A stretch of 64,000 bases of DNA from NCBI GenBank assembly GCA_018402545.1, contig JAGYIL010000001.1, positions 2,356,001-2,420,000 of the forward strand, given 5' to 3'. Positions 21 to 53,934 of this stretch are shown here, piece after piece. The stretch is from Saccharospirillum sp. GTDB lineage: Bacteria > Pseudomonadota > Gammaproteobacteria > Pseudomonadales > Natronospirillaceae. Under the pieces are notes generated by a model. That model did no database searches and was not told where the DNA came from. It saw only the letters and a list, made by a program, of their open reading frames with translations. The position numbers were made by a program, and so were the translations under genes. Within the stretch, counting starts at the first letter, position 1, and every line of letters begins with the position of its first letter.

Positions 21-113
21 CCGGGTATACCTCTCCGGGGTCGGCGTGAACCCATCCATGGGGCCTAGACCGCAACATCCATGTTGCGGACTTCCCCGGA
101 GAGGTATACCCGG
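21..113. repeat. Palindromic intergenic element, copy A
   Basis: A 20-bp perfect inverted repeat (arms 21-40 and 94-113, CCGGGTATACCTCTCCGGGG and its complement) encloses two smaller perfect hairpins: CCCAT-CC-ATGGG at 51-62 and CCGCAACAT-CC-ATGTTGCGG at 70-89. An imperfect extension (11-20 with 114-123) continues the stem. The whole folds as a three-way junction. Copies B (49242-49334, inverted orientation relative to this one, same 93-bp length) and C (53704-53881) share the interior but have different arm sequences. It lies just downstream of the fpr stop codon. Function unknown. Confidence 0.9.
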
Positions 114-162: not shown

Positions 163-939
163 TTACTTCTCTACAAAAGCCCGCTCAATTACATACTCGC
201 CAATGTGTCCGGCACGGGTTTCGTTGAAGCCCATCTCGTCCAGAATGGCGGTGGTGTCTTTAAGCATGGCCGGGCTGCCGCAGAGCATGAAGCGGTCATC
301 TTCCTTGTTCGGTGCTGGCAGGCCCAGGTCTGAAAACAACTTGCCGCTTTTCATCAGGTCTGTAAGACGACCCTGGTTGCGGAAGGGTTCGCGGGTGACC
401 GTTGGGTAATAGAGCAGTTTTTCCTGAATGACCTCACCGAAGTATTCGTGCTCGTGCAGTTCCTGTTCGATCATGTCGCGATAGGCCAGCTCCGACACGT
501 GGCGCACACCATGGGTCAGAATGACCCGGTCGAACTGCTCATAGATTTCCGGGTCTTTGATGATGCTTAAGAACGGCGCCAGGCCAGTTCCGGTCGACAG
601 CAACCAGAGGTTTTTCCCGGGAAGCAGATGGTCGGTTACCAGGGTACCGGTCGGCTTACGGCCTACATAGATCTGGTCGCCGGGTTTAATGTTCTGTAAC
701 TGGGAGGTCAGCGGGCCGTCGGGAACCTTAATGCTGAAAAACTCGAGTTCTTCTTCGTAGTTGGCGCTGGCAATGGAATAGGCGCGCAGCAGCGGACGGC
801 CGGTGTCCTGTTCCAGGCCGATCATGGTGAAGTAACCGTTCTTGAAGCGAAAACCCGGATCACGGCTGGTCTTGAAGCTGAACAAGGTGTCGTTCCAGTG
901 CTGTACGCTGGTGACCGTCTCTATATTCAAATTAGACAT
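163..939 (-). CDS. fpr: Ferredoxin/flavodoxin--NADP+ reductase (Fpr)
   Basis: A 258-residue cytosolic flavoprotein that moves electrons between NADPH and ferredoxin or flavodoxin, a family linked to oxidative-stress defence and iron-sulphur supply. The FAD-binding RAYS motif is at residues 52-55 and the NADP-binding GTGLAPF at 117-123. The C-terminus ends VIERAFVEK, the extended tail typical of the Pseudomonas/Azotobacter FPR subclass. The start has AAGAGG a few bases upstream. It is divergent from a LysR regulator whose ATG is 105 bp away, the fpr-finR arrangement known in Pseudomonas, which suggests direct control by that regulator. The assignment is firm; the physiological partner is inferred. 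Confidence 0.95.
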   Translation of the reverse strand: MSNLNIETVTSVQHWNDTLFSFKTSRDPGFRFKNGYFTMIGLEQDTGRPLLRAYSIASANYEEELEFFSIKVPDGPLTSQLQNIKPGDQIYVGRKPTGTLVTDHLLPGKNLWLLSTGTGLAPFLSIIKDPEIYEQFDRVILTHGVRHVSELAYRDMIEQELHEHEYFGEVIQEKLLYYPTVTREPFRNQGRLTDLMKSGKLFSDLGLPAPNKEDDRFMLCGSPAMLKDTTAILDEMGFNETRAGHIGEYVIERAFVEK

Positions 940-47750: not shown

Positions 47751-47809
<59 letters not shown>

Positions 47810-47827
<18 letters not shown>

Positions 47828-48176
47828 GATTACATAACGAAAGAAGCCGCCCTCGGGTGGCTTTTTTTGTTATGTCAGTCGGGGCACCCGGCTGCGAACT
47901 GTAAGTTCGACCCGAAGGGCGGTGAGCCGCAGGCGAGCCCATCTGGATAGTCCTACCAGATTACATAACGAAAGAAGCCACCCTCGGGTGGCTTTTTTTG
48001 TTATGTCAGCCGGGAAAACCGGCTGCGAACTTTAAGTTCGACCCGAAGGGCGGTGAGCCGTAGGCGAGCCCATCTGGATAGTCCTACCAGATTACATAAC
48101 GAAAGAAGCCACCTTCGGGTGGCTTTTTTTGTTATGTCAGCCGGGAAACCAGCTGCGAACTGGCAGTTCGACCCAA
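47810..48176 (+). repeat. Tandem 131-bp repeats of the tRNA-Val 3' end plus terminator
   Basis: Unit 1 is 47810-47940, unit 2 47941-48071 (both 131 bp), and unit 3 is partial, 48072 to about 48176. Each opens with ATCTGGATAGTCCTACCA, the last 18 nt of tRNA-Val, then the same terminator hairpin, then a conserved tail with AGTTCGACC and GGTGAGCCG. Units 1 and 2 differ at only about a dozen positions. The array ends 5 bp before the tautomerase stop codon. The layout matches the rtT repeats after tyrT in E. coli. Confidence 0.95.
47833..47875 (+). terminator. Terminator hairpin of repeat unit 1
   Basis: ACATAAC...GTTATGT closes a long stem around AGCCGCCC-tc-GGGTGGCT and a T run (47862-47868). 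It should end the tRNA-Val transcript. The hairpin is repeated in units 2 (about 47964-48006) and 3 (about 48095-48137); unit 2 replaces the G-T wobble by a perfect pair. Confidence 0.88.
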
Positions 48177-49190: not shown

Positions 49191-49241
49191 AAGAGTCCTT
49201 GATATAATTTTTTGTAGTTGGCACAGAGCTAGCGACGGATG

Positions 49242-49334
49242 CCGGTAATACCTCTGCGGGGGAGTCCGCAACATGGATGTTGCGGTCTAGGCTCCAGGGA
49301 AGGATTTACGCCGACCCCGCAGAGGTATTACCGG
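49242..49334. repeat. Palindromic intergenic element, copy B
   Basis: Arms CCGGTAATACCTCTGCGGGG (49242-49261) and its exact complement (49315-49334). Inside, CCGCAACAT-GG-ATGTTGCGG (49265-49284) is identical to the reverse complement of copy A; the second hairpin is partly degenerate (TCCAG-GG-AAGGA). Total length of 93 bp equals copy A. It lies between uvrB and the hydrolase start. Confidence 0.9.
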
Positions 49335-49381
49335 TAACCGGTGCGACTGCAGCCACCGTTCAACATTCAACCTCGGAGCCT

Positions 49382-53603: not shown

Positions 53604-53670
53604 AGCCAGTTTCCGTTGTTAGATCAGGCCGGCTGTCAACCGGCCGACCTCAGTATTAGAAATCGTGTTT

Positions 53671-53925
53671 CGGAGTTCGCTGGCACAGGACTAGCACCGG
53701 ATGCCAGGTAGGGCTATCGAGGGTGGTCCGCAGCAAGGACTAAAACGCCAGGAGCGTTTTAGCACGAGCGCCGCGAGCCCGAAGGGTGAATCCCATGGAG
53801 GGGATTCATATCCTGCGGTCCAGGCCCCATGGATGGGTTGAGTGGGCGGCACTCCGCCCGACCCTCGATAGCCCTACCTGGTGGCCGGTGCGGGCGACTG
53901 GCAGCGTAGACAGCCGCGAACTCCG
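53671..53925. repeat. Palindromic intergenic element, copy C (expanded)
   Basis: Arms CCAGGTAGGGCTATCGAGGG (53704-53723) plus T pair perfectly with 53861-53881, a 21-bp stem. Outer pairs are GCACCGG (53694-53700) with CCGGTGC (53885-53891) and CGGAGTTCGC (53671-53680) with GCGAACTCCG (53916-53925). Inside are five hairpins: 53728-53733/53813-53818 (CCGCAG/CTGCGG) enclosing 53740-53762 and 53788-53807; CCCAT-GG-ATGGG 53826-53837; and GGGCGG-CACT-CCGCCC 53844-53859. The second and the outer flanks match copies A and B. It occupies the 331-bp space between two minus-strand genes. Confidence 0.88.
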
Positions 53926-53934
53926 TTACTTGGA

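Follow-up and report, generated by a model that had tools for sequence, protein, structure and literature searches.

What keeps the arms of a palindrome complementary while their letters change? The question is raised by a 64-kb stretch of the genome of a Saccharospirillum sp. (the whole stretch analysed is called the window, and the genome carrying it the host genome), in which three elements, copies A, B and C, have outer arms that differ from copy to copy and yet pair with each other within each copy. A sequence-only reading of the window had proposed two causes, selection for the folded DNA or RNA and a copying process that rewrites one arm from the other. We found that the element is widespread and present in many copies, folds in a strand-specific way, keeps two A-N-GGA hairpins at fixed spacing and is mobile in Saccharospirillum. 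On balance, and with some reserve, we think that it is a structured RNA of a new TwoAYGGAY-like type, carried on a mobile palindromic unit and serving as a platform for a CsrA/RsmA dimer.

Three palindromes and their hairpin core

Read on the strand that carries GGA in the loops (the GGA strand), the element runs from a stem of about 20-30 bp through hairpin 1, a short linker and hairpin 2 to the second stem arm. Hairpin 1 has 8 bp and a loop A-N-GGA-U, and hairpin 2 consists of GGC-CCC, a loop A-N-GGA-N and then a UUCAC bulge; the fold of this inner element takes up 112 nt. The features of the window are given below with scores from R1, a covariance model trained on 16 copies, and from the TwoAYGGAY model of Rfam (RF01731).

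12-123, minus (GGA) strand: inner element of copy A; R1 131.6 bits, A being one of the 16 training sequences
21-40 and 94-113: arms of copy A, 20 nt each, pairing without mismatch
70-89, minus strand: hairpin 1 of copy A, loop AUGGAU; CCGCAACATGGATGTTGCGG on the minus strand
43-65, minus strand: hairpin 2 of copy A, loop AUGGAU; GGC CCC AUGGAU GGG UUCAC GCC
163-939, minus strand: neighbouring gene with a NAD_binding_1 domain (ferredoxin-NADP-reductase-like)
49232-49343, plus strand: inner element of copy B; R1 125.8 bits, also a training sequence; RF01731 29.1 bits (cut-off 43)
49242-49261 and 49315-49334: arms of copy B, 20 bp, zero mismatches
49266-49285, plus strand: hairpin 1 of copy B, loop AUGGAU
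49290-49312, plus strand: hairpin 2 of copy B, loop AGGGAA
49382-51406, minus strand: uvrB gene, Pfam UvrB domains
53694-53890, plus strand: enlarged inner element of copy C; R1 64.9 bits, outside the training set
53704-53724 and 53861-53881: arms of copy C, 21 nt each, 21 bp, zero mismatches
53662-53679, plus strand: left terminal repeat of copy C, consensus CTCAAGTTTCGGAGTTCG
53917-53934, minus strand: right terminal repeat of copy C, inverted

As the sequence-only reading had it, the arms match exactly over 20-21 bp (A 20, B 20, C 21) at the positions listed, and A and B both measure exactly 93 bp from end to end. Its statement that the copies share interior hairpins is accurate for A and B, which have the same two-hairpin core; C keeps only the same outline, hairpin 1 being longer by about 72 nt and hairpin 2 by about 14 nt. 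A similar enlargement of hairpin 1 occurs in another host copy (L212_1978). In copy A the pairing extends to 21 bp and then continues imperfectly to about 30. Copy A, placed past the stop of the NAD_binding_1 gene with its GGA strand on the strand of the gene, is oriented opposite to B and C, and copy B lies past the uvrB stop, antisense to uvrB. The three palindromes are far beyond chance: the fold of copy A is more stable than its shuffles (z of -8.7 and -9.0 for the two strands), and the arm of copy C has 2 matches within the 64-kb window where 0 are expected. A simple scan of the three window copies found no sigma-70-like promoter near them. Elsewhere in the window, at 47751-48013, a terminator-like hairpin (CATAACGAAAGAAGCC...GGTGGCTTTTTTTGTTATG) occurs in two nearly identical copies after a tRNA gene.

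Copy number and spread of the family

BLAST with copy A returned 43 rows in the host genome, including the self match and at least 2 self-complement rows; of 38 genomes searched, 13 had a match, the host among them. R1 gave at least 150 hits in the host genome, where the 100 retrieved stretches together with the window hold at least 164 distinct copies. In a survey of the order that scored the best 15 or fewer candidates per genome, R1 matched 80 of 244 genomes (E 1e-4), which belong to 43 of 112 genera, the carriers among the matches listed including Saccharospirillum impatiens, S. salsuginis, Nitrincola alkalilacustris, Natronospirillum operosum and Marinospirillum alkaliphilum. The covariance-model search that the earlier reading had proposed thus confirmed a family, with at least 164 copies in the host and carriers in 80 of the 244 genomes of the order.

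Because R1 rewards paired arms and the host copies are mostly those that it scored best, we also made a check blind to the arms, using a small, hand-picked sample of 16 places that fit the pattern of hairpin 1 (from the best 100 of 174 listed) and were absent from the listed hits of R1. Among the 15 places assessed, each in its best-fitting register, nine have an outer stem in which 17 or more of 20 positions form Watson-Crick pairs; the count is 14 in one place and 10-11 in the other five, which appear stemless. The prediction that further copies would also have complementary arms therefore stands as a rule but is not universal.

The loops are kept closely. The A and the GGA of both are unchanged, column by column, in at least 116 of the 118 host copies of standard length, while N varies. 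Among 59 copies of other genera, A-N-GGA is found in hairpin 1 of 50 (absent in 9) and in hairpin 2 of 56 (absent in 3), and the spacing of the two loops is 23 nt in 44 of the 48 copies that bear both; the arms of these copies outside Saccharospirillum are all different (59/59). Across the family N is often G, which makes the loop ANGGAN and not strictly AYGGAY, and a subset of host copies has a tandem G·A step (GA/GA) in hairpin 1. In Saccharospirillum the inner element can be part of a larger unit, about 185-190 bp long, with the CTCAAGTTTCGGAGTTCG repeat and its inverse as terminal repeats. A loose pattern recognised both of these repeats in 47 of the 164 copies; its left half also matches 16 of 473 far control windows.

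A 56-nt core taken from L245 had no match on plasmids or phages, a result that the short probe makes less than final, and no match to the core sequence was found in published papers. An informal look at host contig C1 in 400-kb bins gave no clear pattern of replication-strand bias.

Complementary changes favour one folded strand

Covariation was assessed in an alignment of 65 rows (63 distinct; the congeners G002 and G005 contribute 4), which was fitted to R1 and leans towards pairing. Across these rows, otherwise from other genera, two-sided changes are seen in 34 of the 36 pairs; 98.4% of cells are paired, against 61.8% with letters dealt anew and 37-46% when the arms are slid. Pair counts in the host were restricted to the copies of standard length (118 of 164); their inner-stem pairs are Watson-Crick in 95.6% of cells, a share that falls to 70% with arms dealt anew, host arms being related to one another.

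Since an A·C on the GGA strand is a G·U on the opposite strand, the ratio of the two mismatches tells which strand folds. On the GGA strand, the departures from Watson-Crick pairing in the inner stem of the 118 host copies comprise 61 G·U, 4 A·C and 39 others, among them 13 G·A, 10 C·T and 9 G·G. Counted per copy, 44 have more G·U, 4 have more A·C and 70 are ties, and the 59 copies of other genera give 20 G·U, 2 A·C and 6 others. The terminal repeats of 40 units, used as a control, have 30 G·U against 24 A·C when their two innermost pairs are dropped, and 49 against 27 with them. Fisher's test of 61:4 against 30:24 gives p = 8e-7, for cells that are not independent. In the outer extension of the stem the counts are 209 G·U and 4 A·C, much of this being fixed wobble at two positions, and in hairpin 1 itself they are 4 and 4, too few to judge. 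The excess in the inner stem over the terminal repeats indicates that one folded strand, RNA or single-stranded DNA, is under selection, and with more than 100 copies in one genome the evidence on the selected traits (one strand, its fold, and two loops at fixed spacing) is strong.

The second cause proposed earlier would be DNA copying alone, with template switching at imperfect palindromes keeping the arms complementary and the fold unused. Several observations fit it: two-sided transversions are frequent (78 of 168 two-sided changes between nearest copies), the pairs L141/L090 and L211_5728/L096 differ in the stem only by two-sided changes, and the palindrome runs into copy-specific flank in some of 48 copies, with a mean within the control range. 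A copying process is, however, blind to the difference between G·U and A·C, and so does not account for 61:4 in the inner stem against near parity in the terminal repeats; it also leaves loops at fixed spacing across genera unexplained. We therefore consider copying as the sole cause highly improbable. Of the two causes, selection for a folded strand is supported, and arm copying does not suffice by itself and is a contributor at most. The frequent two-sided transversions, together with the G·A, C·T and G·G oppositions, mean that the tolerance of the stem is not cleanly RNA-like.

Position relative to genes

With gene calls from a codon-score script and the midpoint of the element as reference, none of 158 host copies and none of 57 copies from other genera fell within a gene (6 host copies at locus edges and 2 of the 59 others were excluded); the suggestion that the elements might always be intergenic thus holds for every copy classified. 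Between tandem genes, 51 host copies are sense and 44 antisense, and 18 and 18 in other genera. A further 43 host copies lie in convergent regions, and in other genera the median distance to the nearest stop is 28-44 nt. The elements are thus often near gene ends, often just after genes, and in either orientation. A fixed direction relative to a regulated gene was found neither in the host nor in other genera, and this lack of gene-orientation bias disfavours a cis-regulatory role.

The excess of G·U over A·C recurs in every gene context (26 stem pairs, 116 host copies): 21:2 in tandem antisense copies, 29:3 in convergent, 42:2 in tandem sense and 9:0 in divergent ones, and antisense copies are as well preserved as the others. 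The choice of strand is therefore independent of the neighbouring genes, which points to action in trans or to mobility.

The placement itself would suit two-way 3'-end structures, that is, terminators, insulators or RNase III sites in which the GGA loops are incidental. The intergenic position of all 158 and 57 classified copies, the 43 convergent host copies and the medians of 28-44 nt to a stop are what such structures would give, and REPs are similarly distributed according to the available part of PMC3733652. On the other hand, the loops and their spacing are among the best-kept features, and a terminator needs no strand-specific tolerance of G·U in antisense copies. Nor was an intrinsic-terminator-like site found at A, B or C, the two hits of the scan falling outside the elements; the scan was limited to loops of 3-8 nt, and the long stem itself would escape it. 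We judge this explanation unlikely, and continue with a structured RNA as the preferred reading.

Relation to TwoAYGGAY and other known elements

The plan of TwoAYGGAY, AYGGAY loops inside an outer stem, is present in the window: copy A has AUGGAU twice, and the second loop of copy B is AGGGAA. None of the window copies reaches the gathering cut-off of RF01731 (43 bits), B scoring 29.1 bits and A and C giving no match at E up to 5. Among 20 loci scanned with Rfam, RF01731 was found only at one place of a relative (L249 = L260), where it matches the same stretches as R1, with 45.6 bits and 41.3 for the neighbour; the host copies in L138, L168, L124, L186 and L201 had no match. In the other direction, R1 at E 0.1 recognised three of four loci picked with RF01731 (L290 with 36.8, L291 with 36.7 and, weakly, L293 with 22.5 bits) and missed the pick L292 and the host places in L192 and L193. 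At E 0.001, RF01731 matches 35 of 244 genomes and exceeds the cut-off in 20 of these. Its carriers overlap partly with those of R1, G002, G003 and G010 having R1 matches without RF01731. The host genome has two RF01731 places (L192 1365-1485 and one in L193), one over the cut-off; the other falls just short of it and stands back to back with an R1 copy (L193 2047-2168 and 2251-2362).

These results suggest that the element is likely a sister type of TwoAYGGAY. Both have a weakly kept outer stem around two GGA-loop hairpins and are gammaproteobacterial. A tandem G·A in a stem, described for TwoAYGGAY in the available text of PMC4333381, occurs here in hairpin 1 of the host subfamily. The present element differs in its hairpin 2 with the UUCAC bulge, in its linkers, in its very high copy number and in the terminal repeats of its mobile unit. 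A listing of 2010 classed TwoAYGGAY as a probable RNA that is probably not cis-regulatory (PMC2864571, in the part available), and CsrA binding was predicted for it (PMC4333381); its function is still called unknown, and CsrA binding a prediction, in the accessible portions of PMC4333381 and PMC11661157. Selection that acts regardless of neighbouring genes, as found here, argues against the cis-regulatory label that Rfam gives RF01731.

Other repeat families resemble the element less closely. ERIC- and YPAL-type repeats are palindromic intergenic units of more than 100 bp, with insertions inside some copies and no known transposase; compared by description, the present element is set apart by its two GGA hairpins and its strand-specific covariation. 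With REP, BIME and REPIN sequences, as described in excerpts of PMC3733652 and PMC8266576, it shares small size, intergenic position near gene ends, opposite-direction pairs and a distinction between strands. It is unlike them in its 112-nt fold with two hairpins, where they have one hairpin of 20-40 bp, and in that neither a constant GTAG or CGTC tag nor a linked RAYT gene was found; no constant tag of either kind was present in the 118 host copies, where the base after GGG before hairpin 1 is T in 64, A in 34, G in 19 and C in 1.

Mobility and turnover in Saccharospirillum

Five host copies at unrelated sites (L168_2432, L138_4844, L214_3335, L133_2214 and L215_8825) are 89.6-94.9% identical over 177-200 nt and diverge beyond their terminal inverted repeats. 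Such near-identical copies with defined ends at unrelated sites are typical of a MITE-like element. No target-site duplication was detected, direct repeats in 48 flank pairs being like those of a re-paired control. Close pairs stand back to back (-,+) in 21 of 21 cases within 200 nt in the host and in 11 of 12 within 800 nt in other genera, and, by reading, in 15 of 16 pairs of RF01731 places among the matches listed.

Sites were compared with those of congeners in the 34 rows (of 42) that passed an anchor filter: a partner copy is present in 27 and missing in 7. A reversed direction was flagged in 7 of the 27 shared sites, five of them clear (L123/L059, L138_7535/L063, L162/L084, L211_9681/L096 and L146/L097) and two doubtful (L125_2054 and L188). 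Eight shared pairs with the same direction differ by 22 two-sided changes, 17 changes that give G·U, 2 that give A·C and 8 of other kinds; one of the eight, L139/L109, has poor anchors (2.9 kb span), and with two doubtful rows (two host L125 copies leading to one partner) the 10 rows of standard length give 32, 22, 2 and 12. Seven of these eight pairs show two-sided changes at the shared site, and in L141/L090 and L211_5728/L096 the stem differences are solely of this kind.

The S. impatiens site orthologous to copy A (L234) was considered as an empty site and rejected, since a shrunken palindrome sits there, with its core missing and matched changes in the remaining arms. The core looks to have been lost between two GGTATACC repeats.

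Smaller rearrangements were also seen. Small modules (CGAGACGTCGGACCG; AGTGGGCGGCACTCCGCCC; GATGTGTCGCACCACCC) recur within the core of L131, L218, L123, L168/L088 and window 53694-53890, and at shared sites they are in some cases present in one species and missing in the other. In L166_5840, L153_2298, L204_2249, L145_2457 and L214_3335 the palindrome extends past the terminal repeat into copy-specific flank, possibly through insertion into older hairpins; the mean of such flank-extended pairing over 48 copies lies within the range of a re-paired control.

Search for a mobilising enzyme

A search of 19 genomes for Y1_Tnp (PF01797) gave a single match in the host, a RAYT-like gene of 147 aa, at L231 1435-1878 (C1 near 1871362). 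Its flanks, up to 1.5 kb a side, contain no element, and none was found in the retrieved flanks of eight Y1_Tnp loci (L225-L232). Conversely, G002, with 12 R1 matches, and G005 bear elements without any Y1_Tnp match. The link to a RAYT-like gene that the sequence-only reading had suggested is therefore not supported, either by the flanks of the host Y1_Tnp gene or by these two carriers. A draft genome of the order, G027, has 49 Y1_Tnp matches, many at contig ends, and R1 found no element in it.

Two further candidates were rejected. A reverse transcriptase (RVT_1, PF00078) as partner was unmatched in the carriers G002 and G010. A search for an autonomous relative sharing the terminal repeat gave, in the best 100 of 105 places, one 1.3-kb pair around a gene, which is not a partner because it is an IS481-family insertion inside a copy. 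This insertion (316-aa transposase; L310 420-1850, host C1 near 2714272-2715585) splits the copy between hairpins 1 and 2 at a CTAG linker, and R1 matches both remnants.

These searches bear on the remaining alternative, that the folded strand is single-stranded DNA of a REP-like or attC-like mobile element whose enzyme reads only the GGA strand. Selection would then act at each mobilisation and direction relative to genes would be irrelevant, in keeping with the lack of gene-orientation bias. Also consistent with it are the five near-identical copies at unrelated sites, which have terminal inverted repeats, the flank pairs, where direct repeats show no excess, and the (-,+) pairs in the host, in other genera and among the RF01731 places listed; TnpA-REP proteins read one folded REP strand according to the text available from PMC8266576. 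Against it, no enzyme of the Y1_Tnp or RVT_1 type is shared by the carriers (G002 has neither, and G010 lacks RVT_1), no element was found in the retrieved flanks of the Y1_Tnp loci, the 1.3-kb repeat pair is an IS481-family insertion, and 7 of 8 same-direction shared sites show two-sided changes in place. We regard this alternative as a serious but minority possibility, and the folded molecule as probably RNA.

A putative platform for CsrA

The preferred reading, a structured RNA that engages CsrA/RsmA, draws on the loops. The Rfam output names the clan CL00106, which we take to group CsrA-binding RNAs. The sequence of the element has hairpin loops with A-N-GGA and sites within the range of 10-63 nt at which CsrA bridges; in the available part of PMC7652899, the SELEX consensus for CsrA is RUACARGGAUGU, the hexaloop is ANGGAN and bridged sites lie 10 to 63 nt from each other. 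Once transcribed, the GGA strand would fold into a long stem holding two GGA hairpins about 23 nt apart, a spacing that would suit one CsrA/RsmA dimer, and selection would preserve this fold and the two A-N-GGA loops while leaving the letters of the stem free. Counting against CsrA, hairpin 1 is longer than most SELEX hairpins, which mostly have at most 4 contiguous pairs in the same excerpt of PMC7652899. All of the 19 genomes tested, the host included, have a csrA gene, so its co-occurrence with the element is uninformative.

In having more than one A-N-GGA hairpin loop per molecule, which one dimer could bridge (PMC7652899, as far as available), the element resembles sRNAs of the CsrB/RsmZ type. 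It differs from them in bearing two loops, on a long stem, where they have many, in occupying more than 100 scattered places and in having a putative transcript. We infer that the many copies may act in trans, as a CsrA sink or an RNA-stabilising platform, and not as switches of single genes. The idea of CsrA binding becomes accessible to simple binding and copy-number experiments.

A bolder extension, which we put forward tentatively and hold to be doubtful, is a "transposable sponge": a mobile DNA family would spread docking sites for CsrA dimers, copy number and transcription would together set the level of free CsrA, and the units would invert or replace one another at their sites and come to lie in back-to-back pairs by the action of an unrecognised class of enzyme. 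If mobile copies did load a global regulator in this way, transposition would alter physiology with genes untouched.

Further CsrA-related RNAs are described in the accessible part of PMC9788540. In P. putida, the RNAs bound by Rsm proteins include intergenic sequences, one of them a "long palindromic region", and ISPpu8 sits in similar regions (both in the available text of PMC7937890). The host copy interrupted by the IS481-family insertion recalls this placement of ISPpu8, as a likeness only. Beside that interrupted copy lies a 90-bp unit with two terminal repeats, from which the core is absent.
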